A DNA stretch of 25,560 bases from a virus, in the IMG/VR virus record IMGVR_UViG_3300033388_000304, positions 1 to 25,560 of that record. One strand, written 5' to 3'. Shown piece after piece: positions 3-17,038 of the stretch; within the stretch, counting starts at the first letter, position 1; every line of letters begins with the position of its first letter. The notes beneath the pieces were generated by a model. It did no database searches, was not told where the DNA came from, and worked only from the letters and a program-made list of their open reading frames with translations. A program made the translations under genes and the position numbers.

Positions 3-149
3 GAAGATGATGGATACTTTATTCATCACCCTGCTGAACCAATAACTAAAGAGATATTAGAAGACTTAAGAGAATACTTCAGCAGTATTGAAGAGTACGA
101 GAAGTGTTCGGCAATATTAAAATATATAAAGGATGAGTTTGATGATTGA
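3..149 (+). CDS. 3' end of an unidentified acidic protein (partial)
   Basis: The frame starting at base 3 is open from the left edge of the window to a TGA at 147-149, giving 48 residues that end in IKDEFDD. The other two plus frames hit stops quickly, and this frame leads with a 17-nt overlap into the next gene at 133, matching the overlapping style of the rest of the operon. The visible part is acidic and probably helical (EILEDLREYFSSIEEYEK). The 5' part lies outside the window, so no function can be assigned. It could be the C-terminus of any replication or metabolism gene. Confidence rests on frame and context only. Confidence 0.6.
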   Translation, partial: EDDGYFIHHPAEPITKEILEDLREYFSSIEEYEKCSAILKYIKDEFDD

Positions 150-378
150 CTTTGAGGGTAAAGGATTTAATGATTCTGAATGCTTAGAGCAAGTTAAGAT
201 ACTAAAGAAGGTTATGTTCAAGACTCACGAAGTCAAGACAGGCAGAGGCAAAAAAGCAATTGTAACACATGAATTTATTTATAACACAGAGGAAGACGAA
301 GAGACAAGGGCTAAAATAATAAACACTATAAAACACTATGAAGCTAAGTTGGAGACCATACCAAACACGAATAATTAA
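133..378 (+). CDS. Hypothetical 81-aa charged protein
   Basis: ATG at 133 is preceded by an A-rich stretch ending AAAGG. The product is small and rich in Lys and Glu, with no signal peptide or membrane segment. A central hydrophilic stretch (HEVKTGRGKKAIVTHEF) is followed by an acidic, probably helical C-terminus. I do not recognise a family. It overlaps the upstream partial gene by 17 nt, and its last 41 nt overlap the start of the helicase gene, so the two are probably translationally coupled. Position just ahead of a helicase is compatible with an accessory DNA-metabolism factor, but that is context only. Confidence 0.6.
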   Translation: MSLMIDFEGKGFNDSECLEQVKILKKVMFKTHEVKTGRGKKAIVTHEFIYNTEEDEETRAKIINTIKHYEAKLETIPNTNN

Positions 379-1573
379 TAAGGCACGAGAAGTTCTATAC
401 AAGTATAGGTTTGTATACCTTGCTATGGAAGTAAGAACAGGAAAGACTTTAACTGCATTGGGTACAGCACAAGCATGTGCTTTCAGGAATGTAGTATTCT
501 TAACTAAGAAGAAAGCTATCTCTTCTATAACTCAAGACTACGAGTTGTTGAATCCTAACTTTAAGTTTGATGTAATCAATTACGAGTCAATGCATAAGCT
601 GTTATTAACTCGTTGTGATTTCTTAATACTTGATGAGGCACATGGCTTGGGTGCATTTCCCAAACCAAGTAAGAGAGCTAAGGCAGTAAAAGATTTTATT
701 AAGAAGTTTGATTGTGCAGTATGCTTGATGTCAGGCACACCAACCCCTGAAAGTTACAGCCAAATGTATCATCAGGTTTATGGTATACCTGCCAATCCAT
801 TCAATCATTTCAAAAACTTCTATGCATTTGCTACTGACTATGTTAAAGTATCAAGAAAGAAAATAAACTCTTTGTATATAAATGACTACAGCAATGCGAA
901 GACAAGTGTGTTACGAACCATGGAACCATACACCATAAAGTATACGCAGAAAGAAGCAGGCTTCAAAGTTCAAACTACTGAAAAGGTTTTACATGTAGAG
1001 ATGAACGATGCGACTTATCAGATTACAAAGAAGCTGAAGAGACATAACATCGTTGAAGGTAAAGAAGAAATAATATTAGGAGATACCCCGGCTAAACTAA
1101 TGAACAAACTTCATCAGCTTTATTCAGGTACAATAATATTTGAATCCAACAATGCTACTACCCTTGACTTGAGCAAGGCAGAGTATATTAAAAAATATTT
1201 TAAAGGAAAGAAGATAGCAATCTTTTATAAGTTCAGACAAGAATTGAAAGCTTTGAAGGAAGTTTTTAGTGGTGCTTTAACTACAGAGCTTGATGAATTT
1301 AATTCTACTAATAAAAGTATTGCTCTTCAGATTGTTAGTGGGAGGGAAGGGATAAGTTTATCTCAAGCTGAATGTCTAGTTTATTACAACATAGATTTTT
1401 CAGCGACCTCCTATTGGCAATCAAGAGATAGGATGACAACCAAAGAGAGATTGAAGAACAATGTGTATTGGGTGTTCGCTAAAGATGGTATTGAAAATGA
1501 TATATACAAGACTGTGATTAAGAAGAAAGACTACACAGTAAATCATTTCAAGAAGGATTTGTTATCTTTGTAG
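338..1573 (+). CDS. SF2 (SNF2-like) DNA helicase/ATPase
   Basis: A 411-aa protein with superfamily 2 helicase motifs in the right order. A Q-type motif lies at residues 5-9 (WRPYQ). The Walker A motif is EVRTGKT, with the lysine at K36, in the shortened form typical of phage SNF2 helicases. Motif II is DEAH at 99-102 and motif III is SGT at 132-134. The second RecA lobe carries SGREGISL (334-341, motif V) and a motif VI-like QSRDR (361-365). It should use ATP to translocate on or remodel duplex DNA in replication, recombination or repair. The length is close to that of minimal phage SNF2-type helicases, with no added domains. The ATG at 338 lies inside the upstream gene and is the first one ahead of the Q motif. 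The next gene begins 1 nt after the stop. Confidence 0.92.
   Translation: MKLSWRPYQTRIINKAREVLYKYRFVYLAMEVRTGKTLTALGTAQACAFRNVVFLTKKKAISSITQDYELLNPNFKFDVINYESMHKLLLTRCDFLILDEAHGLGAFPKPSKRAKAVKDFIKKFDCAVCLMSGTPTPESYSQMYHQVYGIPANPFNHFKNFYAFATDYVKVSRKKINSLYINDYSNAKTSVLRTMEPYTIKYTQKEAGFKVQTTEKVLHVEMNDATYQITKKLKRHNIVEGKEEIILGDTPAKLMNKLHQLYSGTIIFESNNATTLDLSKAEYIKKYFKGKKIAIFYKFRQELKALKEVFSGALTTELDEFNSTNKSIALQIVSGREGISLSQAECLVYYNIDFSATSYWQSRDRMTTKERLKNNVYWVFAKDGIENDIYKTVIKKKDYTVNHFKKDLLSL
1563..1570 (+). promoter_or_regulatory. TATCTTTG (TAnnTTTG) motif, possible internal promoter
   Basis: A perfect match to the Bacteroidetes -7 element TAnnTTTG lies 4 nt before the ATG at 1575. It falls inside the last codons of the helicase (Leu-Ser-Leu-stop), and no -33 TTTG was seen at the expected distance, so chance is a real alternative. 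It is listed because the same octamer with nearly the same spacing precedes the cupin-like gene on the other strand. Confidence 0.2.
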
Positions 1574-1574
1574 T

Positions 1575-1781
1575 ATGAGGTTCATTAAGTTTTTGTTAGT
1601 GTGGATAAGCCAAAACTTAGCAATTCCTTTTTGGGTTGTGGGTCACATACACTTATCAATTCACAGCTTTCATGAACTCTACGAGCTACTAAGTTCAATA
1701 GCCTTGAACATTGTAGTAGCCGTTGGATTTTTAATTGACTACAATAATGACCGAACAACAAATACAAAAGAAAAGGATTAA
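1575..1781 (+). CDS. Small membrane protein with two transmembrane helices
   Basis: A 68-aa product with two hydrophobic segments, about residues 4-23 and 38-54, and a polar charged C-terminal tail (NDRTTNTKEKD). His and aromatic residues in the loop (GHIHLSIHSFHELYE) are notable. It begins 1 nt after the helicase stop and overlaps the nuclease gene by 35 nt from the nuclease ATG at 1747. Size and topology would fit a class II-type holin or an inner-membrane host-modifying protein, but its place in the replication operon gives no direct support for lysis. No family recognised. Confidence 0.6.
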   Translation: MRFIKFLLVWISQNLAIPFWVVGHIHLSIHSFHELYELLSSIALNIVVAVGFLIDYNNDRTTNTKEKD

Positions 1782-1986
1782 ACAATTAGAAGAAGAAGGG
1801 TACTACGTTATCAAGTTGACAGTAACAAACAAGAACGGAATCCCTGACCTGATTGCAGTACCAAAAGATTCTGAAGTGTTATTTGTTGAATGTAAAAGAC
1901 CGGAAGGAAAACTTTCCGAGTTGCAAAAATATAGATTAAAAGAATTAAAAGACTATGCTAAGACAGAAGTATATAGGGGACATTAA
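1747..1986 (+). CDS. VRR-NUC domain nuclease
   Basis: A 79-aa stand-alone VRR-NUC domain of the PD-(D/E)xK nuclease fold. The catalytic signature is visible: G31-I-P-D34 followed by the core strand V-E48-C-K50, then LSELQ with the conserved Q60. Family members are small phage nucleases or the nuclease module of proteins such as FAN1 and are implicated in cutting branched DNA. An in-frame TTG lies 12 nt upstream (1735), but ATG at 1747 is the more likely start and leaves only a short lead before the first helix. The gene overlaps the upstream membrane protein by 35 nt and the next gene by 32 nt. Placement next to an SNF2 helicase suggests a shared DNA-processing role. Confidence 0.9.
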   Translation: MTEQQIQKKRIKQLEEEGYYVIKLTVTNKNGIPDLIAVPKDSEVLFVECKRPEGKLSELQKYRLKELKDYAKTEVYRGH

Positions 1987-2308
1987 ACATTACGAGGTAG
2001 ATGATTATTTTGTAGATAGAATCAGAGAACTACCAACCAAGATAGGAATTGATGTAGCCAAACAAGTAGACCTAGTAGCTTCTGACTTACCACAAAAAGA
2101 TTTTTGGGAACAACAAATTGCCTTAGTATCACACCCTTATTATTTTGTGGTGGATTACATACACTCTGAAGAAGTGGCTCCAATATTTTTAGACTTACAC
2201 GAAATAGATGTTGATGAATATCTAGACTATTACAATGAAGACCAAGCAATTAAATTAAATGACTATGATTACAGACGCACAGATAAAATACCTCAGAAAG
2301 ATTATTAA
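1955..2308 (+). CDS. Hypothetical 117-aa acidic protein
   Basis: Start ATG at 1955 lies inside the VRR-NUC gene. The product is acidic and rich in Asp, Glu and Tyr, especially the C-terminal half (LHEIDVDEYLDYYNEDQ). No membrane segment, metal-binding Cys cluster or catalytic motif is evident. I do not recognise the family. It overlaps the following DnaA-like gene by 50 nt, the longest overlap in the operon, which argues that both frames are under coding constraint. An acidic DNA-mimic or protein-binding role is possible from composition alone but is speculation. Confidence 0.6.
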   Translation: MLRQKYIGDIKHYEVDDYFVDRIRELPTKIGIDVAKQVDLVASDLPQKDFWEQQIALVSHPYYFVVDYIHSEEVAPIFLDLHEIDVDEYLDYYNEDQAIKLNDYDYRRTDKIPQKDY

Positions 2309-2687
2309 TAATGAATTCAATGTAGACATACTTTCCAAAAGCCGAAAGCAAAATTATGTAAATGCAAGATTAGTTTACAGCTATATTCTAAGACAGAAAG
2401 GAGTAGGCTTAGTCAGAATAGCAACCTCCTTAAATAAAAACCATGCCACAATTCTTTACCTCTGCAACAACGCACCATTCTACCTCAAGCAGGACATTGA
2501 TTTAAACAATAGATATGAGAACTGTTTATCTCTGTTTGATAGTGAGCATCTACCTGTAGTAGAATACACTCGTAGAGAGCTTCTAAAGGCTTATCTCCAC
2601 CTAGAAACTAAGTACGATAGACTCCTACAAACCAATAGGAATCTAAAAAAAACCATAGAAGAGCTAGAATTATCCAAAAATTATTAA
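2259..2687 (+). CDS. DnaA domain IV-like DNA-binding protein with C-terminal coiled coil
   Basis: A 142-aa protein whose central part (about residues 25-75) follows the pattern of the DnaA C-terminal (domain IV) helix-turn-helix. It runs SR..NYVNARLVYSYILRQ, then GLVRIATSLNKNHATILY, in the place of the usual AR-x6-L ... IG..-GRDHTTV signature; the H-A-T-I-L segment sits where DnaA reads its box. There is no AAA+ ATPase domain, so this is a stand-alone binder. Residues from about 105 onward are charged and heptad-like (LETKYDRLLQTNRNLKKTIEELEL), suggesting a dimerising coiled coil. It may mark the phage origin or bind host DnaA boxes. The ORF has ATGs at 2259 and 2265; the first is used here. 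Confidence 0.8.
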   Translation: MTMITDAQIKYLRKIINNEFNVDILSKSRKQNYVNARLVYSYILRQKGVGLVRIATSLNKNHATILYLCNNAPFYLKQDIDLNNRYENCLSLFDSEHLPVVEYTRRELLKAYLHLETKYDRLLQTNRNLKKTIEELELSKNY

Positions 2688-2703
2688 TATTTTAGACATC
2701 AAT

Positions 2704-2934
2704 ATGGAATATACCATAAAAGATATAGATAAGATAGCAGAGTTTAAAAGTTGGAGTGTCAAAAAAAAGTTAGATGAACTCCTAAGAATAGACTGCCATC
2801 AATATACAAATCTAGGATGCGACTCTAGTAAATCAGAAAGAGAAGAAGTTAGAAAAACTTCACGCAAAATTTACCGACTAATTAAAACGATAGATAAGGA
2901 GCTAGGTTCTAAGTTTCTTAATTGTATGGACTAA
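2704..2934 (+). CDS. Hypothetical 76-aa helical protein
   Basis: ATG at 2704 follows a short 16-nt gap. The product is charged and apparently all-helical, with two Cys (in RIDCHQY and NLGCDS) and a Ser/Lys/Glu-rich middle (SSKSEREEVRKTSRK). No family is recognised. The pattern Asp...Tyr...Cys-Asp...Glu..-Arg-Lys resembles that of the next gene product, so the two could be diverged paralogues. It lies in the replication operon, 5 nt before the next ATG. Confidence 0.55.
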   Translation: MEYTIKDIDKIAEFKSWSVKKKLDELLRIDCHQYTNLGCDSSKSEREEVRKTSRKIYRLIKTIDKELGSKFLNCMD

Positions 2935-2939
2935 TAGAT

Positions 2940-3125
2940 ATGATAAGTGGATTAGAGCATGAGAGGTTAAGTTACATCAACAGGTTGATGGACGACCTCC
3001 ACTCTGACCATTTAGATATTTATGAATCTCTGTGTGACCGAGAGTACTCGGAAACTAGAAAGGCAGTATGTAGCCTGCAGGAAAAGTTAAAGTCTTTAAG
3101 CGAATCTCTTCAGGATGAAATCTAA
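2940..3125 (+). CDS. Hypothetical 61-aa helical protein
   Basis: The frame can be opened at a TTG (2922) inside the upstream gene, but ATG at 2940, 5 nt after the upstream stop, is the more likely start and gives 61 residues. The product is predicted all-helical, ending in a coiled-coil-like segment (CSLQEKLKSLSESLQDE). Residues DREYSETRKAV can be laid against KSEREEVRKTS of the previous protein, but the match is weak. It overlaps the HNH gene by 11 nt. No function assigned. Confidence 0.55.
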   Translation: MISGLEHERLSYINRLMDDLHSDHLDIYESLCDREYSETRKAVCSLQEKLKSLSESLQDEI

Positions 3126-3507
3126 AACCTGTAGAAAATGTAAAGAAGAAAAACCTGAGACTGAATTTTTTTTTAGTGGTCATGTTACTTTGGCAGGTAA
3201 AAAAATTAGAGACACCTTATGTAAAACATGTAAGGTAGTTTACAAACGAGAGCAAAGGCAGAAGATAAGAGATTGGATTAAAGAGTTAAAAGCAGATAGT
3301 GGTTGTGCAAAATGTGGATATTCAAAAGAGACACACCCATCTTTCAAAGTATCAGCTTTAACCTTTCATCATGCTCAAGACAATAAAGAGTTTTGGATTG
3401 CTGATTCCCCAAATCGTGGGTACTCTAGAAAAACAATACAAAAAGAAATAGATAAGTGTGTGCTTATTTGTGTAAGATGCCACGCTGAAATACACAGCCA
3501 TGAATGA
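3115..3507 (+). CDS. HNH endonuclease with N-terminal zinc ribbon
   Basis: A 130-aa protein with two zinc modules. The first is a treble-clef/ribbon of C6-x2-C9 and C36-x2-C39. The second frames the HNH core: C64-x2-C67, then LTFHH with H85/H86, and the closing C119-x2-C122-H123-AEIH. The spacing and the final C-V-R-C-H-A-E-I-H element are typical of phage HNH nucleases. It is expected to nick or cut DNA; phage relatives can be homing enzymes, packaging-associated nickases or anti-host nucleases. The location in a nuclease-rich operon, not beside a terminase, makes a packaging role less likely here. It is not inserted inside another gene, so free homing is not evident. ATG 3115 overlaps the previous gene by 11 nt. 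Confidence 0.9.
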   Translation: MKSKTCRKCKEEKPETEFFFSGHVTLAGKKIRDTLCKTCKVVYKREQRQKIRDWIKELKADSGCAKCGYSKETHPSFKVSALTFHHAQDNKEFWIADSPNRGYSRKTIQKEIDKCVLICVRCHAEIHSHE

Positions 3508-3592
3508 CAAATACAAGAATAAAATGAGAGCTTTGTTCATTAGTTACCTTGGTGTAATAGTAACTTTGCTCTACGTTTTTCTGACAAGATGA
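3500..3592 (+). CDS. 30-aa single-span membrane peptide
   Basis: A short frame starts at ATG 3500, overlapping the HNH stop by 8 nt, and ends at TGA 3590-3592, overlapping the next ATG in a 4-nt ATGA junction. The peptide has a basic N-terminus (MNDKYKNKMR) and one uninterrupted hydrophobic segment (ALFISYLGVIVTLLYVFL) closed by Thr-Arg. Without it the operon would have an 81-nt hole between HNH and the next nuclease, so the frame fits exactly in the gap. An internal ATG at 3524 would give 22 residues. It may be a regulatory or membrane-perturbing micro-protein. The overlaps at both ends are the main support. Confidence 0.55.
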   Translation: MNDKYKNKMRALFISYLGVIVTLLYVFLTR

Positions 3593-4002
3593 GATTTGAA
3601 AATGACAAAGACTTAACTCGAGAAAGGAAAGCTATTGATTACTTTGTTAAAAGATTCAATGGCTCCTACAAGAAGCTTGGTCCTAATGATATAGATTACA
3701 AAGTCTTTGATGAGAAAGGAATTCTAATAGCTTACGCTGAGGTAAAGGGTAGATACAAAACTCTAGCTAATTGTTTTCCTTTACCGATAGCTTGTAGAAA
3801 AGTAGTAAAGCTTTGTGACAAAAGATTAAACCCTGTAATAATATGGGCATGTGACGATGGTATAGTATACGGACAGCCATCACAGATTCATGGCGTGGTA
3901 AAGTGGGGAGGTAGAGCACCAAGAGATGGAGCTGTTAACGACCAAGAGTTAATGATATACTACGACAAACAAAAAACAATTAGATACTTTAGATACTACT
4001 AG
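3589..4002 (+). CDS. Putative PD-(D/E)xK-type endonuclease
   Basis: A 137-aa protein with a credible PD-(D/E)xK nuclease core. An N-terminal helix (TRERKAIDYFVKRF) is followed by N33-D34-I-D36 on a beta strand, a hairpin, and the strand A-Y-A-E51-V-K53-G-R, which supplies E-x-K. A C-terminal half with strands around VIIWACDDGIVYG would complete the fold. The length is typical of single-domain phage nucleases. It starts in an ATGA overlap with the membrane peptide and is the last gene of the plus-strand operon. Its TAG stop shares the CTAG at 3999-4002 with the convergent gene. Alternatives are a Holliday-junction resolvase-like or host-DNA-degrading enzyme. Confidence 0.7.
   Translation: MRFENDKDLTRERKAIDYFVKRFNGSYKKLGPNDIDYKVFDEKGILIAYAEVKGRYKTLANCFPLPIACRKVVKLCDKRLNPVIIWACDDGIVYGQPSQIHGVVKWGGRAPRDGAVNDQELMIYYDKQKTIRYFRYY
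3999..4002. other. Palindromic CTAG shared by two convergent stop codons
   Basis: Bases 4000-4002 are the TAG stop of the plus-strand nuclease, and bases 4001-3999 read on the minus strand are the TAG stop of the 51-aa basic protein. The replication and structural arms therefore meet with overlapping stop codons and no intergenic DNA. I see no hairpin with a U-run here, so any terminator for either arm would have to lie within coding sequence. Confidence 0.8.
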
Positions 4003-4156: not shown

Positions 4157-7100
4157 CTATCTGATTGGTTTAAAGACATCACTCTTGCTGAGGTTAGTGC
4201 TTTGCCTTTTGAGTCTTTGTTGCTGTTTATTGTACTCTGCATTTTGTTCAGCTACAGATTTAGTTTTAGAAGATTTCTTTTCTTTAGGTCCCTCAATCAC
4301 ATAAGGAGAGTAGTTGATTAGTCTAAGCAAATCTTTTCCTATGTCACCTTCTTTACCTAGGTCTTGCATGTTTCTCACAAACCTTCTTATTTGTTCTGCA
4401 GGAAGAGAGGTAATAGATATTGTTTCTGCTATAGCTTTCTCGTAAGCTAACGCTTTCTTTTCAGGGTCTTTAGTATTGGCAGCTCTTTCAAACAATTCAA
4501 ACACTCTTCCAACTGTCATGAAAGGAGCTATGTTTCTCCATCGTTTCCCTGCATAAGGTTTGTCTTGTATGTAATCAGCAGCTACATTTACAATGTCCCC
4601 TATAATAAACAATGCGTTTAAGTTACCAAGTATTGCAGCTCTAATCATATCTTCCTCGTCATCATCACGCACAGGTCTGAGAATGCCCGGCAATCCTAAT
4701 GCAACAAATTGGAACAATGACGGAGCTACCAAGTGGTAGGTAAGAAATGTTCTTATGTTTTCAGCTAGTGTACCCTTACCTGCATTTCTATCCCACGCTT
4801 TTAACTTTCTGTATAAGTTTCTCGTTGATTGAATTTCTTTTCTCAAGTATTGTTTTGGTGTAGTCAAGAACATATTCAGTCCCCTTGCTAGTGCTGAGGA
4901 AGTTTGGAAGTAATCTCTATCCTGTAAGTCCATAGACTGCTGAGTTCTCTTTGTATCTTTTTCAAACTTAAGTATAGCTTCTTGCTTTGCTTGTTCTTCA
5001 GATAACCCACGCTTCAAAGCTTGGTCTTTGTAGTACAAGTAGTTAGGCATACCTCCTAAATAGATAGCTGCTTTATCACCAAACTTAGTGGTGTACATAA
5101 TAAAGTTTACATAGGAATCCCAATACTGATTAGGCACAAACTCCACCATGTTGTCTTCACTATAGGATTCTATTATCCTTGTGATAGATTGTCTGTTTCT
5201 ATCCTGCATGTACACAGAGTTCTCTGATATTTCATTAAAGGTCTTTTTGATTTGAGGAATATTCTTTAAAGAATACTTCAACCAATTTCCATAACCAATA
5301 TCATTAGCATAGGTAATCATAGAGGTTAACTGCTTTATCATAACCGTTGGATTCAAACCAATTTTAGAAAAGATAAAGAGGTTGTTAGTGAAGTTTACTA
5401 ATCTATCTGCCGCAGTATTTCTAACTCCCTTGTTAGCAATCTTCCCTATCATATCGTTAATCAGCTTGTTGACATAGTCTCCATGGATAGCACTAATAGC
5501 TTCACGCACCTGTTTGTTACTGAATATTTTGTGTATGTCCCTGATAGTTTCACCATAAGCTGCAAAGTATTCCATGTCTCTTAGATAAGTCGCCATAGTA
5601 TTCATTGCATTCATCTTTCTAATAGGTAAATTGTTTTGTACTCTTACCTTAGTAGATGAAGCTCCTACGGATGTGCCTCTAATAGATTTGTCTGATAACA
5701 AATCCAAGGTTTCTTGCTCTATTGGATTGCCTTGAGCATCGTTTCTATAAATCATACCTGAATAAAATCTATTCCAAGGCATGTTGGTTCTATACAAAGC
5801 TCTATATGTTTTGTTGTAATGCTCATACAAGGAAGGATAGAATTCATTTACTTGCCAATCAGCAAACTCTTTTGCAAGAGGGTCCATCTTAGATTCTATT
5901 TGCTCCATGATTTGTGCGTAGTTTTCTCCAAACGTAGCTTCAAATGAACCCCTGTTAGCAGGGTCCTTATATAAGTTGTAGTAATAAATCATCTCATTTT
6001 GAGAAAGATGTACTTCGTTTTCAGATAAAACTTGTTTGAGGTTTTGTTTATTCTCAAGGCTTGGGTCTTGCTCGTATGCTTTCTTGGCATCCTCTACAGC
6101 TTTAGCGTCTAACAAATAAGTTGCTTCTACCTCCGGTTTGTTATGAGACCTAACTTTATTTCTCCACTTCTTACCATACAACTCTTCAAACTTCTTAGCA
6201 AGAACCTCTTCTTGTTGCATCATTCTTCCCTTGAACATTCTTGTTGAGGCATCAACCTTTGCTGTTACTAAATCTTGTAGCCTACCACCAAATAATTCAC
6301 CGGGCATTTTAGATATTAAATCCATCAAACCATCTAACGCTTCTGTATAATTGAAAACCTTTTTGATACTTGTACTTAACTTAGTTAAGAAAGCATTCAT
6401 TTTGTTCTTCAGCTTATTCCTCTTTGCATTAAGTCGTTTCTGATTTTTTAGATTTACTTCAGTACGAGTATCTTTATCTCCTAAGTCTACTTTGTCTCCG
6501 GTTACTTCTTCATATGCAACAGAAGCTTCTTCATTGTATTTATTGTGAGCATCTTCAAGCTGTTGCTTCAATTCACTTCTACCTATCTGAATCATTTCTT
6601 CGAGGGTAGCAAGAGCTGTATCCAATGCACCTGTTTTATTAACGTCATTGTTCTCCATTAACAATGAGTTGTTTAGGTTGATAAGGATTTGCAAGTCAAC
6701 CATTCTATCAAAGTCTCCTTCAGTTGTAATAGATTGACCGGCTATCTTGTTGAACTCTTCAGTCAACATTTGATTTTCTTTTTCAATCTCCTCTGCTGTA
6801 GCAGTTTTGTTTAGTCTATCCTTTTTTATTCTTTCTATTCTTTCTTTTATCTTCAAGCTAATCTTGGCAGCTTTCTTTCTACCTGACTGCTTAGTCTCAT
6901 ACTTTCCATTCAGAATATTTTCAATCTTTCTTTCAAGCCTTGCGTTGTTCTTTTCATTTACAAACTCGACAACCTCATCAAATATGTTTTCTATATTAGA
7001 TTCATTGGCATTCGTAACCTTTCTTACTAAGCTCATTACTTCACTACGAGTATATATATCTGCAGGTAAAGACTTTCTAATAAAGTTTCTAATAGAAGCT

Positions 7101-10100
7101 TTAACTTGTTGAAGGTCTCTTGCACCACGCTTTCTTTGTTGTACCATTCTACGAGCAGCAGTAAGTTTTTCTTGAACACTTTCACTTGTTCTTGTACCTA
7201 CAGCTCTTTGGAATTCAACCTGAAGCATAGCTTGTTTTGTAGTCAGGCTATTAGTACCATCACCTTCATTAATATATTCAGGTTGTTTCTGTAAGAACTC
7301 TATAGTTTGGTCTGCGATTTGTTGCTCTGTAAGCTTGACCTTTCTTCTCTTGTTACTTTTGATAAGTTTTTGTTCGAAAGCTTTTACTCTTTTAAATAAC
7401 TTGATACCTGCTTCCATACCACCTTTTATGTTGGCGAAAGTTTTTGGTAGGGTGTTAAATAAATCGACATCAATATTCATTAGCTTGTTAACCACGCTTG
7501 CAGGATATCCCTTAACTCTTACCAAATAATCTTTGATAAGTTCATCTCGGAAATTGTATTCAGTTCTACCTTCTACAATTATGTCTACTATTTCTTTTTG
7601 CTCTCTACCTCTAGGAGTATCTGTAATCTTTTCTGTAATGGTTTCAAACAATGGTAGTTTAGATTGAGCAATCATGCTGACAGCATTTGCTTTACCTACT
7701 ACCATCAAGTCTTTGTTTCTATTTTTAAACTCTACTTTGTTTACACCCTTGAGGTCAGTATAAGTTCGTTGGTCTAAAGGTTTACCTTCAATCCTTTTAG
7801 GTTGATAGAACTTGTCATCTTGATATTGTTCTCTTACTCTTTCATTTATTTCTTCGGTCTTCGTCTTGTCACCTATCAAAGTATCAGGCATATAGGGTTG
7901 TAAAGAGTTAGCCACGCTGTACAATCCATCAAATATTACAGCAGAGTTAGCTTCTGAAGGAACTTTACCTACGAAGAAAGGATGTGTAAACCCTTTATCT
8001 TGTACACCATCAACTAATTCCTCGGTGTTTTCAGGTACTACATATGTAAAACCACCTACTACATATCCACCTTTGTTCTCTTTTAAAAACTTCTCTCCTA
8101 ATAAAGCTTTATCTCCAAACTCTAGATTGAAATCTTGAGTGTTGGTTCCGTTCTCTAGCAAAGCTTTTTTATATGCAGGAGTAGACTTGTTAGTTTTTAA
8201 GTTAGGGTTGTCCGGTATAATACCTGTCATATAATATCGTCTTCTGTCAAAGTTTTCATTCTTCATTGCATCAACGAAGTCAGTTTCAGACACAGAGCTT
8301 GGGTCGATAATCATATCTTGCAGTTCCTGAGAAAGTTGTCCACCCATTCTATTGTTCTTATAAGCAGCCATATCTTTAGAAAACTTCTTATAAGCAGCAG
8401 GGTCTTTCTTTTGTAAGTCCTCTAAGGCATCATATAAAAACTCTGCACCATACATGTTTCCATACATAGCATCAGGAGTTTGAATCATTACTGCTACCCC
8501 TACTCTTTCTCCGGCTTTAAATTTCTTTTTAAGTTTATCCATGTTACGAAGAGCTGTACCCTTGTCAAGTGAAGCAAAGCCTACTCCGTTCTCGTTATTA
8601 TCTTTCATTGCTGCATAGCCAAACCCACCATACAATCCTGCATCAGGGTCAAAAGCTGTAGCATCTGAAGTAATTACATATATATTTCCGTTGTGTTGTG
8701 CAGCAAAATCATTCAGGGTTGTAGTGGGCAGGTCAGAAACCATATCTCCTTTAAACACCTTTTGTTCTCTTCCCGGTACCTTCTCAGCTTTAGACTTAGG
8801 GTTAACAGTAGCTGCCGTTCCTTCTGTATACGGCTCGGATTTTTGAAGAGTCTTTAAGTCATTGGTAAATATCTCTTGTCCTGTAGCTACCTTGTCAGCC
8901 AATGTGTTAAGAAGTTCGATAACAGCTACATCATCTTTGCTTACTATTGGACCAATATCTACAAGCTTATCTAAGCCTAATGTTTTTGCTACAGATTTTA
9001 CGAAGTTTAAAATTGCACTTCTAGCAGGTGTATCTAGTTGCTGATATCTTCCTGCCATCATACCAAATAGTTCAGCTAGTCTTTCTTCATTTTGAATGGT
9101 GGCTCCTTGGTCTTTATAAGCTTTGGCAAATGCATCAGCTTTTTTGTACAGCATAGTGTTCTTATCCACACCATTCATAATACCACGAGTTAATTTACTC
9201 ACGGCTGCACCTATATTTTTTTCCCCTAATGTTTGATATAAAGCTGCGTGAAACGCTTCGTGTGCTACGGTAGTTTCATTAGCCTTATTCATATCAATGT
9301 GAATAGTATTGTTATCGAAGTCATAGAACCCTCTACCACTTCTGCCTGTAGCTTTATTGAACTCATCAGAAGATTCATGTAATACTATCTGCGTCTTTAA
9401 AGTGTTAGCTAAAGACTTAGCTGCTCTTACAGCTTTGTTTATAACCTTGTTACGCATAGATACTTGCTCCTTATCTAATGCACCTTCAGGCTTACCCTTT
9501 CTATTAAAGAATAAATTCTCTTGCGTTTGCTCTGTTTCTGTCTCGGTACCAAAAGCTTCTTCAATATCTTGTCTTTCTTCAACAGATATATCACCGTCCT
9601 CATCTAGTTCTTCTGTGGTTTCAACCTGTGTTTTGGTTGTTCCAAACTCAGGTATTCTAGACTCAGCATCTAATGCATCTTGCTGTTCTTTTGCAGCGAT
9701 GGTTGTGATGTCCTCAAGCTGTTGATTTATTTCTTGAATTCTCGCTTGGTCTTTTTTAGTTAGCTCTTTGCTTTTGCCATCAATTTTATTCTCTAGGTTT
9801 TGTTTTTCTAATAACAAGTTTAAAGCTAGTCTTGATTGCTGAACTGTATAATCACTAGGAATTTGTGGCATCAATGCTTCTATCTGATTATAGTTAGCTA
9901 GTAAACCATCGGCACCCTCTTGAGTTAGTGGGTCATTAGGGTCAGCAACTCTTTGTTTTAGATTGGTAACAAAAAACTTTTTGTACTGAGGGTCTTTAAG
10001 CATCTCTTGATACCATGAAAAAGCCTCGTCAGTAACTAGGTCTAAGTCATTAGGGTCGCTTGCCATTGCAGATATAGCAGTTGGAACAGCCATGATTTTC

Positions 10101-12613
10101 CCACCAAGAGCTTCCAAGTAACCTTGATAAACCACCTCACCTAAGAAATCTTGTATTGATTCAGGAGTATAAAACGCAGCATCTTTTCCTTGGAACTTCT
10201 CTCTAATTAAATTATATATATACTCTGAACCTAGTTCAGCTACAGATTGCAAAGCTCCTGTTTCAAATTCTGCTGCAGCACCGGCTGCTAAAATACTACC
10301 ACCTTGAGCAGCCATGATTGAAAGGTCACTCTTTCCTGACTGACGCATCAAGTTTTTTAAATCTTTTCTTATATATTCTGCAAAGGTTCTGCTTGTTGTT
10401 GATTTGTTACTTCTGTTTAATGCTCTACCTACAATACCATTTAACAAACCTTGAGAGTTAATAATGTTTCTAAAACCTAAATCTTCTAATACAGCCGTAG
10501 CAATAGCAACAGGGTAAGCTATTAATCTTTTTTCTCCTTCATCAATGTTGTCAAAGTTTGGATTCTTTGACATCTTTTCTAGTTGTGCCTCATTACTTTG
10601 AGCCAAGAGTCTGATAATACGGCTAGTCTTGTTTACTTTCTGCCTGTTTTTCAACAATTTTTTACCCAACTCAGGACCGTATTTTAAAGTAAGCTCCGTA
10701 GCTTTTTTACCTCCTGTTTTTACTACTCCTATAAAAGCCGGTACAGAATATGCTACCCCATGCATAGCCTTTTGAAAATCATTACCATTATTTTTGTAAG
10801 CTTTTCGTAGCATCTCATCCGGTAAAGTTTCTTGCCCTACATATCTTGATAAAACTTTTCTAAATTGTTCTCTACTTCCTTCTTCTAAATCTCTACCTAT
10901 TATATTGGCTCTACCTGTGTAAATATTTTGATTGAAAGCATCACCCATCGTAGCACTCTTAGCTCTCTCATAAGCACCGATAGATTGCTCTTCGCCATCC
11001 ATTAAAATTTTAACATCACCTTCTCCTACTGCTGATTTACTAAGACCAAATGGGTCACCTGCATATTCTCTAAATGCTTTTTCAGTTGTTTGTTCAATAG
11101 CATTAGATGTATACTCTACGAGGTCTCCTTCAGAATCGCTTGTGATGTTGTCAAATACTACTGCTAAATCTTGTGGTCCTATTTCAAGGAATAAATTTTC
11201 TAATCTTTTTTGGTCTAACGCATCAAGGTCTCCTTTATTTAAAATTTCTTTTATGTCTTGAAGTTCATCAGCATATGCTTCTCCTAATAGATTAACATCA
11301 TCTAGTTTGTAGTTGCCATCTTTGTTTTTTGACAATCTATCTACAGCAAAATCTATATGTTCAAAGAAACCTGTTGAGTCATCTACACCGGGAGCATTAA
11401 AACCTAGCCCTGTTGTCCTCATTAAACTTCTAAATCCTGCAGCTAGTTCTTCAGGTACTGATGCACCTGCACCACCTATACCTTCTAGGAAAGAATTAGA
11501 AAGCCTTTCTAAAAATAACATTCCACCTCTTGCTCCTTGCTTACTTATATTGGTACGCATATCAACATAAGACCCTACCATTTCATCAAACTCTTTACCT
11601 TTTTTAATAAAAGTTTTTTGACGATTCTGTAGATTTTTTCTCACCATATCAAGACGTTCTGTTGCCATCATATAGTTGTTGTAATTGGGGTCGGCAGATA
11701 GTTCTTGAGGAGTTTTTCCTCCAAAAGCATTCCTGTATATTCGGTCAAGTCTAATTTTTTCTGCAGAGTATCCTTTAACATCTTCGGCAAACCTGTCTAC
11801 CTGTGTATTAAATAATGTGTTTAAAGCCTTCAGTTCTTTTTCATTTTGAATTTTGTTTAGCTTGGCTTCTTCTTTTCTAAGACCTGCATTAAAAGCTTTT
11901 TCAGACTCTTCTTTGTTTTCTCTTAAAAATTCTACGAGTTTATTAGCTCTTTTTTTAGCTCCAAACTCTAGACCCTCTACAAAAGGAACTCCGAAAGCAT
12001 CTAATGGCACACTAATTTCTTTATCATTAGACGACCTTACTATCATTCTATCTCCTCCTCCTGTTTCTTCAAAAGTAAAACCATACTGATTGAACTTATA
12101 GTTCATCTCAGGTATAACTACTTCTTCTTCCCTATCACTAGTAAGTTCTTCATCAATAGAGTTGATGCTTGCCTCGAAAGTATTTTGCCCTAAATTTTTA
12201 GAGTAGTCGTCTGCTAAGATTGTTTGTGCAAACGGGTCAGTTGTATCAAACTGAGACTGTGTTATAAAAGATTCCGATGTAATATCGTCTCCGGTTAAAC
12301 CTGAAGGAGATTCCGAAGAAGGTTGAGAGGGGAGGTTCGGATTTTTTTTTTCTCCTGTTTCAAAATTAATACTACCCATTGGGTCAGTTATTACATCCTC
12401 AACTATCTCATCGTTAGAAACAACTGTATCACCGGGACCATATTGAGTAAAGAACTCTTCTTGGCTTTTAGTATACAAGCCCTGATTACTTACAACATCA
12501 AATACTTTTTGTCTGTAAGACTCGTCTTGATATTGTTGTTCAAATTCATCATAAGACTTAGTGTAAAGCCCTTGACTTGTTAATACATTATAAAGCTTTT
12601 GTAGTTTCTCCAT
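4157..12613 (-). CDS. Giant 2818-aa polyvalent ejection (internal virion) protein with zincin-like domain
   Basis: The largest gene, with ATG at 12613. Visible layout: residues 1-60, two tandem repeats of about 31 aa each carrying QGLYTKS; an acidic Ser/Thr linker to about 150; a helical region with hydrophobic stretches near 617-630, 766-785 and 837-850. A metallopeptidase-like domain follows, with H1118-E-A-F-H1122 preceded by a strand and a Thr-rich lead (NETTVA), plus a likely third ligand E1181 in RLAELFG. An unassigned alpha/beta domain spans about 1305-1390 (IYVITSDA, GGFGYA), with another near 1500-1560. A long basic coiled-coil region covers about 1720-2070. The C-terminal part has membrane-type helices at about 2627-2645 and 2658-2682 and a basic tail. 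This mosaic fits phage polyvalent proteins that enter the cell with the DNA, and the gene sits where T7 encodes gp16. Peptidase activity is inferred from the motif alone. Confidence 0.85.
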   Translation of the reverse strand: MEKLQKLYNVLTSQGLYTKSYDEFEQQYQDESYRQKVFDVVSNQGLYTKSQEEFFTQYGPGDTVVSNDEIVEDVITDPMGSINFETGEKKNPNLPSQPSSESPSGLTGDDITSESFITQSQFDTTDPFAQTILADDYSKNLGQNTFEASINSIDEELTSDREEEVVIPEMNYKFNQYGFTFEETGGGDRMIVRSSNDKEISVPLDAFGVPFVEGLEFGAKKRANKLVEFLRENKEESEKAFNAGLRKEEAKLNKIQNEKELKALNTLFNTQVDRFAEDVKGYSAEKIRLDRIYRNAFGGKTPQELSADPNYNNYMMATERLDMVRKNLQNRQKTFIKKGKEFDEMVGSYVDMRTNISKQGARGGMLFLERLSNSFLEGIGGAGASVPEELAAGFRSLMRTTGLGFNAPGVDDSTGFFEHIDFAVDRLSKNKDGNYKLDDVNLLGEAYADELQDIKEILNKGDLDALDQKRLENLFLEIGPQDLAVVFDNITSDSEGDLVEYTSNAIEQTTEKAFREYAGDPFGLSKSAVGEGDVKILMDGEEQSIGAYERAKSATMGDAFNQNIYTGRANIIGRDLEEGSREQFRKVLSRYVGQETLPDEMLRKAYKNNGNDFQKAMHGVAYSVPAFIGVVKTGGKKATELTLKYGPELGKKLLKNRQKVNKTSRIIRLLAQSNEAQLEKMSKNPNFDNIDEGEKRLIAYPVAIATAVLEDLGFRNIINSQGLLNGIVGRALNRSNKSTTSRTFAEYIRKDLKNLMRQSGKSDLSIMAAQGGSILAAGAAAEFETGALQSVAELGSEYIYNLIREKFQGKDAAFYTPESIQDFLGEVVYQGYLEALGGKIMAVPTAISAMASDPNDLDLVTDEAFSWYQEMLKDPQYKKFFVTNLKQRVADPNDPLTQEGADGLLANYNQIEALMPQIPSDYTVQQSRLALNLLLEKQNLENKIDGKSKELTKKDQARIQEINQQLEDITTIAAKEQQDALDAESRIPEFGTTKTQVETTEELDEDGDISVEERQDIEEAFGTETETEQTQENLFFNRKGKPEGALDKEQVSMRNKVINKAVRAAKSLANTLKTQIVLHESSDEFNKATGRSGRGFYDFDNNTIHIDMNKANETTVAHEAFHAALYQTLGEKNIGAAVSKLTRGIMNGVDKNTMLYKKADAFAKAYKDQGATIQNEERLAELFGMMAGRYQQLDTPARSAILNFVKSVAKTLGLDKLVDIGPIVSKDDVAVIELLNTLADKVATGQEIFTNDLKTLQKSEPYTEGTAATVNPKSKAEKVPGREQKVFKGDMVSDLPTTTLNDFAAQHNGNIYVITSDATAFDPDAGLYGGFGYAAMKDNNENGVGFASLDKGTALRNMDKLKKKFKAGERVGVAVMIQTPDAMYGNMYGAEFLYDALEDLQKKDPAAYKKFSKDMAAYKNNRMGGQLSQELQDMIIDPSSVSETDFVDAMKNENFDRRRYYMTGIIPDNPNLKTNKSTPAYKKALLENGTNTQDFNLEFGDKALLGEKFLKENKGGYVVGGFTYVVPENTEELVDGVQDKGFTHPFFVGKVPSEANSAVIFDGLYSVANSLQPYMPDTLIGDKTKTEEINERVREQYQDDKFYQPKRIEGKPLDQRTYTDLKGVNKVEFKNRNKDLMVVGKANAVSMIAQSKLPLFETITEKITDTPRGREQKEIVDIIVEGRTEYNFRDELIKDYLVRVKGYPASVVNKLMNIDVDLFNTLPKTFANIKGGMEAGIKLFKRVKAFEQKLIKSNKRRKVKLTEQQIADQTIEFLQKQPEYINEGDGTNSLTTKQAMLQVEFQRAVGTRTSESVQEKLTAARRMVQQRKRGARDLQQVKASIRNFIRKSLPADIYTRSEVMSLVRKVTNANESNIENIFDEVVEFVNEKNNARLERKIENILNGKYETKQSGRKKAAKISLKIKERIERIKKDRLNKTATAEEIEKENQMLTEEFNKIAGQSITTEGDFDRMVDLQILINLNNSLLMENNDVNKTGALDTALATLEEMIQIGRSELKQQLEDAHNKYNEEASVAYEEVTGDKVDLGDKDTRTEVNLKNQKRLNAKRNKLKNKMNAFLTKLSTSIKKVFNYTEALDGLMDLISKMPGELFGGRLQDLVTAKVDASTRMFKGRMMQQEEVLAKKFEELYGKKWRNKVRSHNKPEVEATYLLDAKAVEDAKKAYEQDPSLENKQNLKQVLSENEVHLSQNEMIYYYNLYKDPANRGSFEATFGENYAQIMEQIESKMDPLAKEFADWQVNEFYPSLYEHYNKTYRALYRTNMPWNRFYSGMIYRNDAQGNPIEQETLDLLSDKSIRGTSVGASSTKVRVQNNLPIRKMNAMNTMATYLRDMEYFAAYGETIRDIHKIFSNKQVREAISAIHGDYVNKLINDMIGKIANKGVRNTAADRLVNFTNNLFIFSKIGLNPTVMIKQLTSMITYANDIGYGNWLKYSLKNIPQIKKTFNEISENSVYMQDRNRQSITRIIESYSEDNMVEFVPNQYWDSYVNFIMYTTKFGDKAAIYLGGMPNYLYYKDQALKRGLSEEQAKQEAILKFEKDTKRTQQSMDLQDRDYFQTSSALARGLNMFLTTPKQYLRKEIQSTRNLYRKLKAWDRNAGKGTLAENIRTFLTYHLVAPSLFQFVALGLPGILRPVRDDDEEDMIRAAILGNLNALFIIGDIVNVAADYIQDKPYAGKRWRNIAPFMTVGRVFELFERAANTKDPEKKALAYEKAIAETISITSLPAEQIRRFVRNMQDLGKEGDIGKDLLRLINYSPYVIEGPKEKKSSKTKSVAEQNAEYNKQQQRLKRQSTNLSKSDVFKPIR

Positions 12614-12672: not shown

Positions 12673-14580
12673 CTATCTAAAATAAGCTTGTTGTCCATCT
12701 GCTTCGGCTGCAGTAGTATTTCCTTTAACAAAATTCAATAAGTTGTCTAGAGCTTGTTGCCCACCATCTGTTTCAAAAACAAATGATTGGTCACCTTTCG
12801 TAACTTTGATTCTGTACATAGAAGCTCCTGTTTGCTCAACCTTAAAGCCGAATGGAGATAAAAGAGGAACTAACACTTTCTCAGCAGGGGTTTCCTTCAA
12901 GCTACCATCTGATAATTTCGATGTTAGTACAGCATCATAGTATCTATTAGCTTGCGCTAAAGAAGTTTCAGGAGCTACTGTCCCTGCACCTCCACCTGTT
13001 GGTGTCATAGAACTTAGCTGAATAGTTTTACCTATTATATAGTCATCAGATTTAGGCTCGTTAAACTTATCGTCAGTAATCATTTCTCCCGGACCAAGTT
13101 TTCTTGACTCTTTTCTTCCACCTTCAAACTCAAATATTACATTCTCAGGATTGTCAGGGTCAGATACTACCGATTTAACTACTCCTGTTTGTATACCACC
13201 TGCTAGGTCAACACTATCTGCAATGTTAGATACTCCTGTTAACAATACTGCAGATTCTGCAAATGTATCAAATGGCATCAGATTACCTGCTGAATCAAGT
13301 AATGGTACTTCTTTGGTGTTTCCTTGAGCATCAGTAACAAATATTTTGTTTCCTGATTTCTTAACAGTTTGAGCTCCTAACAGGTCTCTAAAATAAGTTT
13401 CGGCTGCTGCCACCTCTGTAGCATCACCATAATACATGTCACCCAACATGCTAAATGTTTTCTGATTCTTTTTACCTGCTTCTCCTTGAGCTATTTTAGT
13501 AGCTGAATCACCCGGAGTTCTTAATGTTGAGGCTTTGATTTGTTTATCTACTGAGTCGTTAAGTCTTTCTGTGATAGCACCTTTTACTGCAGCTTTTTGT
13601 TCTTCAGTAAATTCAGGTTGACCACCCATATCATTTTCTCGGTTTAAATATATTTCATTAGGCTTTCTTTTGCTAGGGTCAGGCTCATAGGTAAAAGTAT
13701 AAGGAACTTTTTTACCATCCACTTCAACCATTAAGTTTTCATTTGTTAGAATTGAAGTTACATTAAAAGGGTTAGCCATCATTGCATCTGCTGTATAACC
13801 TAGCCACTCTTTATAATTCTTTAATACTTCAGGGTCTCCACTATATTTTCCACCTTGTGAGGTAGTAGTAATCACTTGGTCTAATCCTCCTTCATAACCG
13901 GACATTGATACAGCTAATTCATCAATCATTCCAAGGTCATCGACTGCTGTGTTGATTGCTTTTCTTACATCATAATAATTATAAGTGCCTTTTAGATTAG
14001 CCATTAATTCAGGCACAGTTTGGTAGCTTGATGGGTTAGTATCCATTTTTCCATCCTTCCATAGTCCAATTGAAACCACCCCGTTATTAGGATTTATTAG
14101 TGCTTTTGAATTTCTTAAGTTATATAATCCTTCAGCTTGCTCCATCTTCCATGGCTCTAAAGCTTGAGACCTAGTAGCAGGGTCAGCCGAATTCATTCTT
14201 TCCATCTTAAGTTTGTATGCTTCCTGATAAGCTTCACCCAACTTGAACATCATTTTGTTAGAGTCGTTAAGGTTAGCTCTTACTGTAGCATACTCCCTTG
14301 GATTTAAAAGTCCTTGCTTTAATAGTCTGTCTTGAGTTAACAAAATTTGTTGTGCGTCATTGGCATATGAAGAAACAAATTGGTTACCATCTACATAATC
14401 TCCGGTAGGAGCATTCTGTAGAGTTTCAACCATTTCTCTAGAAGCTTTATCAATCTCAGCTTTTTGGTCTTCTCTAACTTGAGCTTCAGCACTAAGTATA
14501 TCAGTAAACTGCGTAGCTACTGCTGCCCAATTTACCTGACTTGTTGCATCTCTTTTAACGTATCCAAATTTTGTTGCCAT
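12673..14580 (-). CDS. Putative internal virion/ejection protein (T7 gp15-like position)
   Basis: A 635-aa soluble protein with a charged, helical N-terminal third (AEAQVREDQKAEIDKASREM) and a more mixed alpha/beta C-terminal part containing a strand-rich stretch near 560-610 (YRIKVTKGDQSFVFE). No signal peptide, strong membrane segment or catalytic motif is visible. It lies between a gp14-like coiled-coil protein and the giant protein, separated by 9 and 59 nt, so the three form an apparent ejection cassette. In T7 the matching middle gene encodes gp15, an internal core protein that forms the periplasmic tunnel. The role is assigned by position and character, not by recognised sequence similarity. 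Confidence 0.6.
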   Translation of the reverse strand: MATKFGYVKRDATSQVNWAAVATQFTDILSAEAQVREDQKAEIDKASREMVETLQNAPTGDYVDGNQFVSSYANDAQQILLTQDRLLKQGLLNPREYATVRANLNDSNKMMFKLGEAYQEAYKLKMERMNSADPATRSQALEPWKMEQAEGLYNLRNSKALINPNNGVVSIGLWKDGKMDTNPSSYQTVPELMANLKGTYNYYDVRKAINTAVDDLGMIDELAVSMSGYEGGLDQVITTTSQGGKYSGDPEVLKNYKEWLGYTADAMMANPFNVTSILTNENLMVEVDGKKVPYTFTYEPDPSKRKPNEIYLNRENDMGGQPEFTEEQKAAVKGAITERLNDSVDKQIKASTLRTPGDSATKIAQGEAGKKNQKTFSMLGDMYYGDATEVAAAETYFRDLLGAQTVKKSGNKIFVTDAQGNTKEVPLLDSAGNLMPFDTFAESAVLLTGVSNIADSVDLAGGIQTGVVKSVVSDPDNPENVIFEFEGGRKESRKLGPGEMITDDKFNEPKSDDYIIGKTIQLSSMTPTGGGAGTVAPETSLAQANRYYDAVLTSKLSDGSLKETPAEKVLVPLLSPFGFKVEQTGASMYRIKVTKGDQSFVFETDGGQQALDNLLNFVKGNTTAAEADGQQAYFR

Positions 14581-14589
14581 ATTTTTATT

Positions 14590-15630
14590 TTAGCTATTCA
14601 TTAGTAGTTGCAACTCAGCTTGTTCTTCTAGAGTTAATCCTCCACCAAAACTCATTTTATTCATAAGCTCTTTTTTTCTATCAAAAGTAGCCATGTTACC
14701 ATCTTGTGGAACCATTGCAGGGTCGCTAGGAATAACCGGATTAGGAGGTGGTGTACCTTGACCTTGACTTTGATTTTGTGTAAACAATTGTTGGTTTGCA
14801 GATAACCCCATAGCATATTGGTCTTGATATGATTGGTTACCAAATAATAAGTTTCTTTGATTAGTATCTAGACCTCTTTTGAATTGTCTAAACTCTCTGT
14901 TAGACATACCCGGAATGGTACTTAAATCTAAATTAGTAAAGCCCTCACCTGCTTCAGCACCCATACCTGTCTTTACATTACCAATAGCTGCAAACTCATC
15001 AGCAGTTAATTGTGTGTTTCCTAAAGCGGCTTTTTGTAGTGCAGTATTTTGTGCGTATAAAGGAACTAAACTTAAACCTGATTGCAGAGCACTACCTACA
15101 CCTTGCATACCTTGTGCAGTAGCGGCTGCAGCAGCCTTCTCAGCATCAGCAGCAGCTTGTTGAGCTCCTTGTATTTCCCCTAAATCTAATTGTACATTAA
15201 GGTCTCTAAGTCTTGAGTCTTCTTTTGCAACAGCCTGTTCAATAGTTTGTAGTTCTTGACCCATAGCTGCCCTTACTTTTCCTTGAGCTGCGTCAGCCAC
15301 TTGTCCAACTCTACCTGCTGCGGCAGCAGCTCCTCTTTGGTCTCCTTCACGAGCCGCATCTAAAGAGGTAGAAGCACTAACTAATAAAGCTTCTCTTTGT
15401 AATTCATATGGTTCTTTCTTAATAGAAAGTTGCTCCATATAATTTTTGTCTAATCTTTTACGAGCTTTTTGCATCATCATATCTGCCTCAGATTCTGCAT
15501 CTCTCATGTCTCTTTTACTTTTTGCAGCTTGACTAAAAGAGACTCCTGCCTGACCTAAAGCTATAGCTGTTGACCCAATTGCCAACCACCCTGATAATCC
15601 TATTCCTACTGCTGTTGCGACTCCTGCCAT
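14590..15630 (-). CDS. Putative internal virion protein (T7 gp14-like): hydrophobic N-terminus and Ala-rich coiled coil
   Basis: A 346-aa protein with a hydrophobic, Gly/Ala-rich N-terminus (about residues 4-32, VGIGLSGWLAIGSTAIAL). A basic helix (SKRDMRDAESEADMMMQKARKRL) follows, then a long Ala/Gln-rich coiled coil (about 85-185). The C-terminal part is Gln/Asn/Pro-rich and probably disordered. This layout recalls T7 gp14 and P22 gp20/gp7-type ejection proteins, which leave the virion and embed in the host envelope to help DNA cross. Position supports this: it precedes the two larger presumed ejection proteins. The ATG at 15630 lies inside the upstream cupin-like gene (25-nt overlap), implying coupled translation. 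Confidence 0.7.
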   Translation of the reverse strand: MAGVATAVGIGLSGWLAIGSTAIALGQAGVSFSQAAKSKRDMRDAESEADMMMQKARKRLDKNYMEQLSIKKEPYELQREALLVSASTSLDAAREGDQRGAAAAAGRVGQVADAAQGKVRAAMGQELQTIEQAVAKEDSRLRDLNVQLDLGEIQGAQQAAADAEKAAAAATAQGMQGVGSALQSGLSLVPLYAQNTALQKAALGNTQLTADEFAAIGNVKTGMGAEAGEGFTNLDLSTIPGMSNREFRQFKRGLDTNQRNLLFGNQSYQDQYAMGLSANQQLFTQNQSQGQGTPPPNPVIPSDPAMVPQDGNMATFDRKKELMNKMSFGGGLTLEEQAELQLLMNS

Positions 15631-16163: not shown

Positions 16164-17015
16164 TTAAGGAAAACTTTTCATCACCTCTGATTCTACCGCA
16201 AACAGCTCAGAAGGTGCATCAGATTCTAATGTTAGTTCAAATACGCAATAATGACCTAAAATTCCATGTGATTCTGCTACAGGGTTTTTAATAAACCACC
16301 AAAACTCATTGGCTGTAGGAAGAACTGTAGGTTGAATTGAAAGAGGTGTCGAGTCAATAGTGATTTCATAAACATTTCCGTTTCTCACAATACTTGTCAG
16401 TATACCTGTAAAGTTCGCAGTAGTTCCGAAGTACATATAATCACCTACACTAATAATACTTCCCGGCACAACACCCGGAGGAAACGTAATAATTATATTA
16501 GCAGGATTGGTTGTATCAAACGTATCGCTTTCTCCAATACCATTTACACTTCTTAGCTCCCATTGAGTGGAGTTTGTATTTGGTCCGGTTGGACCATCGT
16601 TTCTAACAAAAGCAAACCATGCTCCTTCTTTTTGTTCAAAGTATGAAGCATCTATTACACCATCTAATTGTATATCTGATTGAAGAGTTGCAGACCAAGC
16701 ATCGTCTCCTTCAAGATTTAAAGTCTTAAATATTTTATTTTGTAAAGGAGCTTCATTAAAGACACTTGTAATTCTAGATGGATATTGGTCTCCATAATAT
16801 TCATTACGAGTGTCATTTGTATTGTGTCTCCATAGATTACCTCCCTTAAATGTATATAGGAATTGATTCATTCCTTTTATAAATTCAGGGCAATAGGTAT
16901 AGAATGAAGGGAATCCTTTAGAATCTTCACTATATGTTATGGTACATTTATTTTCTTCTGTTATTGGTATCATGGGCAATTTATTATTGAAGTTATCTTC
17001 TGTTATTGGTATCAT
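16164..17015 (-). CDS. Phage structural/tail-associated protein, 283 aa
   Basis: A beta-rich protein whose N-terminal region TYSEDSKGFPSFYTY, then GMNQFLYTFKGGNLWRHNTN, resembles a segment I associate with large Bacteroidetes-phage tail proteins; the family is not named here. The C-terminal half (IIVTF-type strands, GSIISVGDYMYFG) is also beta-rich. ATG at 17015 forms a 4-nt ATGA overlap with the stop of the 310-aa gene. The frame can be opened 6 nt earlier at a TTG (17021), and a second equally placed ATG lies 42 nt downstream (16973) because the start region is tandemly duplicated. Products of 283 or 269 aa are thus both possible. Probably part of the tail tip or adhesion apparatus. Confidence 0.7.
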   Translation of the reverse strand: MIPITEDNFNNKLPMIPITEENKCTITYSEDSKGFPSFYTYCPEFIKGMNQFLYTFKGGNLWRHNTNDTRNEYYGDQYPSRITSVFNEAPLQNKIFKTLNLEGDDAWSATLQSDIQLDGVIDASYFEQKEGAWFAFVRNDGPTGPNTNSTQWELRSVNGIGESDTFDTTNPANIIITFPPGVVPGSIISVGDYMYFGTTANFTGILTSIVRNGNVYEITIDSTPLSIQPTVLPTANEFWWFIKNPVAESHGILGHYCVFELTLESDAPSELFAVESEVMKSFP

Positions 17016-17038
17016 GGGCAATTTATTATTGAAGTTAT
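16954..17038. repeat. 42-bp perfect tandem duplication across a gene junction
   Basis: Two copies of a 42-bp unit (16954-16995 and 16996-17037) are identical, and one further base also matches. The unit is 14 codons long, so it keeps frame. The copy on the 310-aa gene side contains that gene's last codons and stop; both copies contain an ATG start for the 283-aa gene (17015 and 16973). In protein it gives two copies of PMIPITE, with EDNFNN between them. Exact identity suggests a recent event. Confidence 0.95.

Follow-up and report, generated by a model that had tools for sequence, protein, structure and literature searches.

Giant phage proteins that carry a peptidase have been described in several systems. 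For polyvalent proteins with a metallopeptidase (MPTase) domain, Iyer et al. proposed in 2017 that the chain is divided into units by its own MPTase (PMC5512222). A cutting motif was not found named in the main text of that paper, nor in the literature that we searched. In phi-crAss001, virion cargo is encoded by gp45-gp46-gp47 behind the muzzle, and gp47 (262.5 kDa) was detected in virions by MS (PMC10172136). Two further points of comparison are the N4 vRNAP (gp50), an injected giant with a zincin in its C-terminal metallopeptidase region, and the core proteins of T7 (gp16) and PhiM1.

The 2818-residue protein analysed here shares features with each of these. Like the MPTase-containing polyvalent proteins, it is a giant phage protein with a zincin and with accessory domains that vary among relatives; unlike them, it combines a fixed, putative ejection chassis with one defined slot and repeated clade-specific linkers. 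Its gene occupies a position equal to that of gp47 in the gene order behind the muzzle. The protein resembles T7 gp16 and its PhiM1 counterpart in being the product of a third cassette gene, in a weak structural alignment within the C-terminal half and in its hydrophobic C-terminal helices. However, it is twice the size of T7 gp16 and has a zincin and cargo instead of a transglycosylase; a Pfam match to a transglycosylase, which is a feature of T7 but not of P22-like proteins, was not found in it. The N4 protein differs in having an RNA polymerase module and in being reported as unprocessed (PMC5512222). We read the giant as a gp16-type ejection protein turned polyvalent carrier, in which the zincin would cut the linkers and free the cargo, and assign this reading a probability of about 0.5. 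Polyprotein processing as an idea dates back to 2017; the new element is the linkers and the exchangeable cargo slot on the chassis.

The window, i.e. the whole stretch of DNA analysed, is the complete 25,560-base virus record IMGVR_UViG_3300033388_000304, which may be a fragment of a larger genome. The open reading frame reported in the initial annotation does exist, running uninterrupted on the minus strand from its ATG (12613 to 4157; Table 1). It is the final gene of a minus-strand virion block, in which two small virion proteins are followed by the 1829-aa muzzle-like protein, two further proteins, a short tail-fibre protein, the 346-aa and 635-aa proteins and the giant. The two small proteins (251 and 264 aa) match phrog_14543 and phrog_13977 and, by analogy with phi-crAss001, are possibly ring proteins. 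When the muzzle is compared, the nearest named phages turn out to be ctfjg026, Pachyviridae of Cellulophaga and Elemovirus; therefore the tail is of the crAss-like kind, and the cassette behind it looks ejection-type. We infer that the virus is a crAss-like-tailed podophage of marine Bacteroidota, the host group included. The crAss muzzle C-terminal domain PF25729 was detected (5.7e-19) on the ORF at 16164-17021 (-), which encodes one of the two further proteins of the block. This domain sits on its own ORF despite the 1829-aa muzzle-like ORF upstream. Plus-strand genes at 133-4002 converge on the virion block, and reading of their sequences suggests helicase-like (338-1573), VRR-NUC-like, DnaA-C-like, HNH and PD-(D/E)XK-like products.

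The suggested T7-like cassette needs a qualification. The giant does come third in an ejection-type cassette that follows the muzzle genes, but the tail is crAss-like, as indicated by PF25729, and not plainly T7-like. A cassette of the T7 gp14-gp15-gp16 type is plausible. The order of the three genes is identical in all full loci (the window and L005-L009), and Gundel, Elemovirus and ctfjg026 share it, the giant again closing a three-gene cassette beside the tail genes. The syntenic giants of Elemovirus and Gundel are annotated as 'structural protein', and the phi18:3 counterpart, gp123, which has no detectable homology to the giant, was annotated so by MS/MS. Elemovirus, a phage of Flavobacterium sp. 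BAL314, has a giant of the MP type with the zincin. Judging from synteny and from these annotations, the giant is probably present in the virion.

Table 1. Features of the giant protein and of neighbouring virion genes in the window
Feature	Residues	Positions	Strand	Basis
Muzzle/tail-tip-like virion protein, 1829 aa		17955..23444	-	phrog_14478
346-aa protein, cassette member 1		14590..15630	-	phrog_13764 virion structural
635-aa protein, cassette member 2 (middle)		12673..14580	-	phrog_35506
Putative giant ejection/polyvalent protein, 2818 aa		4157..12613	-	ATG start, without internal stop; ~70 relatives
Two tandem ~38-aa repeats, ..QGLYTKSYDEF.. / ..QGLYTKSQEEF..	1-60	12434..12613	-	Sequence reading
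Chassis domain N1	144-349	11567..12184	-	HMM common to most giants
Chassis domain N2	665-984	9662..10621	-	HMM common to most giants
Zincin metallopeptidase domain MP	1052-1257	8843..9460	-	HMM, structure model, conservation
HEAFH	1118-1122	9248..9262	-	Conserved 41/41
E1176-E1177, one of them the likely third zinc ligand	1176-1177	9083..9088	-	Conserved 41/41
Linker 1, VPGREQK, candidate processing site	1279-1285	8759..8779	-	Family linker comparison
Cargo module class A, without Pfam match	1286-1663	7625..8758	-	Unrelated module replaces class A in L007
Linker 2, PRGREQK, candidate processing site	1667-1673	7595..7615	-	Family linker comparison
Helical/coiled-coil region BC	1675-2050	6464..7591	-	HMM and structure model
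C-terminal all-alpha region C	2087-2690	4544..6355	-	HMM, structure model and T7 gp16 alignment
Hydrophobic helices, possible membrane segment	2622-2683	4565..4750	-	Hydrophobicity

Searches of viral contigs returned six orthologs, near full-length or partial, and subsequently 71 loci containing the C region. A profile alignment was made of the unique giants; the resulting set of ~70 relatives comes mostly from IMG/VR, and its complete giants range from 2301 to 3859 aa. Most of them share N1, N2, MP, the slot, BC and C in this alignment. In a smaller group MP is not matched, and HEMGH or HEFGH occurs just ahead of BC; an alternative linker type was sought in these members, and no clear motif emerged. 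With the patterns used, no prophage or bacterial relative was found via the C region, and searches of the giant against Pfam and NCBIfam gave no match above the cut-off. The initial annotation described a mosaic of many domains. This applies to one exchangeable cargo slot, which holds a single module in the window, whereas the rest is one conserved chassis consisting of the N-terminal domains, the zincin, the slot itself, the coiled coil and the helical C-terminus. Repeats resembling residues 1-60 also open other giants, e.g. L043 and ctfjg026.

According to structure modelling, the C-terminal half is likely gp16-like. The model of residues 1676-2818 is all-alpha (mean pLDDT 81), and a second-look alignment matched it to the T7 core protein (Z 5.0, 214 residues) and to the PhiM1 ejectosome protein (Z 5.3, 217 residues). 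Both matches are located at positions 412-724 of the model, corresponding to residues ~2087-2399 of the giant (aligned stretch 2090-2397), and involve residues 515-859 of T7 gp16 and 548-907 of the PhiM1 protein; the T7 region falls within gp16-C (domain limits from PMC8954989). A Foldseek search of the PDB with the C-half model gave nothing significant, and a profile search of PDB sequences revealed no similarity to T7 gp16. A gp16-type C-terminal half is in this way backed by a weak but concordant structural match to two core proteins. Two candidate homologs of this half were rejected: no homology was detected for phi18:3 gp123, and phi-crAss001 gp47 had no significant profile similarity to it or to the giant. 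The long basic coiled coil of the initial annotation corresponds to a long helical region (1675-2050), but this region is only mildly basic (K+R 70, D+E 63). The membrane-type helices correspond to two C-terminal segments of moderate hydrophobicity (2622-2648 and 2656-2683).

HEAFH lies at residues 1118-1122, as originally reported. It is the only HEXXH in the giant, and composition predicts 0.0066 HEXXH per such protein; the motif is present in 48 of the 49 complete giants. The one complete giant without it, L090, has HEILAH at residue 1797, and this HEXXXH form fits a variant noted by Iyer et al. (PMC5512222). H1118, E1119, H1122, E1176 and E1177 are identical in all 41 aligned MP domains. 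E1181, which had been named as a likely third zinc ligand, is kept in only 38 (Q in two, V in one), and therefore the earlier assignment was probably misplaced, likely by four or five residues. On conservation grounds, the ligand is more probably E1176 or E1177. The MP model displays beta strands, a HEXXH helix and a downstream helix bearing glutamates. Many zincins are among its second-look structural neighbours: PPEP-2 matches with Z 6.0 over 130 residues and anthrax LF with up to Z 5.0, and jannalysin/selecase and IrrE are also present. In addition, residues 2124-2363 of the N4 vRNAP, the region in which Iyer et al. placed its metallopeptidase (PMC5512222), align to the model (Z 4.8, also by second-look alignment). 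Foldseek against the PDB gave nothing significant for the MP model, and profile searches of PDB sequences gave a weak IrrE-type match only; several family members show weak metallopeptidase matches. The structural neighbours are individually weak (Z 5-6), and it is their concordance that serves as evidence. Together with the invariant HEXXH and the topology of the model, they support a zincin domain at the place where it had been proposed.

Between MP and BC lies the cargo slot, ranging from 35 to 1713 residues, the content of which varies among relatives. Class A cargo is present in the giant of the window and in L005, L006, L008 and L009, while L007 has a different class (B) at the same position. 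Further modules are present in L008, where the addition is weakly ParB-like, and in L009. In these close orthologs both the swap (window and L005 versus L007) and the insertions (L008, L009) are flanked by GREQ linkers. Cargo is exchanged on a fixed chassis. Profile comparison connects classes A, C, D, E and F through class C, whereas class B is unconnected. Modules of classes A, B, C and D were tested against Pfam and gave no confident match, and in the search for the fold of the cargo module the structural matches covered the peptidase part only. The relation to polyvalent proteins seen by the initial annotation is borne out by the slots of relatives, which contain ART-PolyVal (5e-17), LPD23 (3e-9), a second metallopeptidase (DUF6782), an L5 gp82-like domain and a weak GNAT. 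The slot of L044 (residues 149-854) contains a DUF6782/M91-like metallopeptidase with HELQH, LPD23 and a ParB-like DGRHR segment.

The modules are flanked by a short peptide, [KR]-x-Q-[KR], which is alike within a protein and different between clades. Most cargo pieces in the giant and its relatives have such a linker on both sides. In the clade of the window, the junctions read VPGREQK and PRGREQK (window), SREQK (L007) and GRES/GRET (L006, L009); other clades have EKAQK, EKNQK, RRQQR, REQK, RFQK and others. [KR]-x-Q is matched by the final site ahead of BC in 40 of 41 proteins, among them L050, whose slot is essentially empty. Of the module edges, 28% have a site no more than 8 aa away, compared with 16% when the sites are shifted (p=5e-4). 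In the window alone the two GREQ copies are unremarkable (generic exact 4-mer test, p=0.71), and so the case for the linkers rests on the family. We compared left and right linkers of the small GF module, which is found in 29 proteins, using 27 of these. Their similarity within a protein was 20.2 against 14.9 on permutation, with p=5e-5, an optimistic value, as are those of the other linker tests, since the test sets contain related sequences. Tested individually against polar-matched windows of each protein, the left-right match is significant (p<0.05) in 17 of the 27 proteins and absent in 10. In L074, PEPRRE is found on both sides of the GF module, without Q and with different codons; at the E1181 position this protein has V. 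No linker of this kind turned up when four other giant or polyvalent-type phage proteins were scanned ab initio for repeats. The linkers are conserved as peptides at module borders, and they are probable candidates for self-cleavage sites of a polyvalent ejection polyprotein.

If the giant is a gp16-type carrier, its C-terminal half would be the DNA-ejection part and its N-terminal half would bear the zincin protease, with the cargo slot between them. The chain would be packed in the capsid and would exit via the tail with or before the DNA. The zincin would cut the linkers, here at GREQK 1281-1285 and 1669-1673, and the cargo (1286-1663) would be released from both the protease half and the ejection half. 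A broader version is possible but held more tentatively: the whole ejection-protein family would be a self-cleaving polyprotein, in which every cargo module would be flanked by a clade-specific [KR]-x-Q-[KR] code recognised by the zincin, and effectors could be added in evolution as module plus linker.

It might be argued that the linkers are flexible spacers, or binding tags used in packaging or in unfolding during ejection, and that the protein stays a single uncut chain. The N4 vRNAP contains a comparable metallopeptidase domain and is reported to be packaged without processing (PMC5512222). The linkers are rich in K, R, E and Q, and both linkers of the window fall where the model has low confidence and the chain is probably exposed. 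However, plain spacers should not repeat the same 5-6 residues at unrelated junctions, and polar-matched windows do not: GF linkers score 20.2, and windows of matching polarity taken from the same protein score 12.1 (p=2e-4). A tag, in turn, would be unnecessary once per module. We consider this explanation unlikely.

Somewhat more doubtful still is that the linkers are cut by another protease, either a phage prohead protease or a host one, with the zincin acting as an effector or in some other step. For such metallopeptidases, Iyer et al. name auto-processing as well as action as effectors (PMC5512222), and the L044 slot holds a second metallopeptidase. Linker type is also tied to the whole chassis no less than to the zincin: linker similarity correlates with MP distance when C-domain distance is controlled (partial r=0.23, p=0.0005), but more strongly with chassis distance (partial r 0.53). 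This covariation with the zincin is weak. On the other hand, a protease with several virion targets should have left the linker in other ORFs of the loci; among the ORFs of 16 loci, the clade linker is confined to the giant, save for one unrelated DGRET in the muzzle. Moreover, the linker goes with the MP-type zincin and is absent with the other peptidase type, as the site at the BC border occurs in 42 of 44 proteins of the former kind and 0 of 10 of the latter, a contrast confounded by phylogeny. We regard the zincin as the candidate cutter and another protease as less likely.

That the linkers are mere remnants of DNA-level cassette recombination via short repeats is very improbable: exchange is evident and the linker is doubled where modules were inserted in L008 and L009, but linker copies agree in their synonymous codons in 214 of 359 cases, against 193 expected. 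This is close to independent choice, which argues for selection at the level of peptide rather than DNA, and the two RRQQR copies of L048 share zero codons.

For the processing idea, the linkers supply exact sites and clade variants. If the proposed cleavage is true, they would also show where effectors start and end in giant proteins that are hard to read otherwise, and would direct attention to injected domains that still lack a name, among them the cargo superfamily of classes A/C/D/E, which has no Pfam match. The way in which linkers bracket the modules hints at a route by which a virus could inject several tools as one chain and then separate them. As a separate observation, gp47 of phi-crAss001 (L103:22120-29145), at the gene position of the giant, has HEAFH at residue 2157, near its C-terminus.
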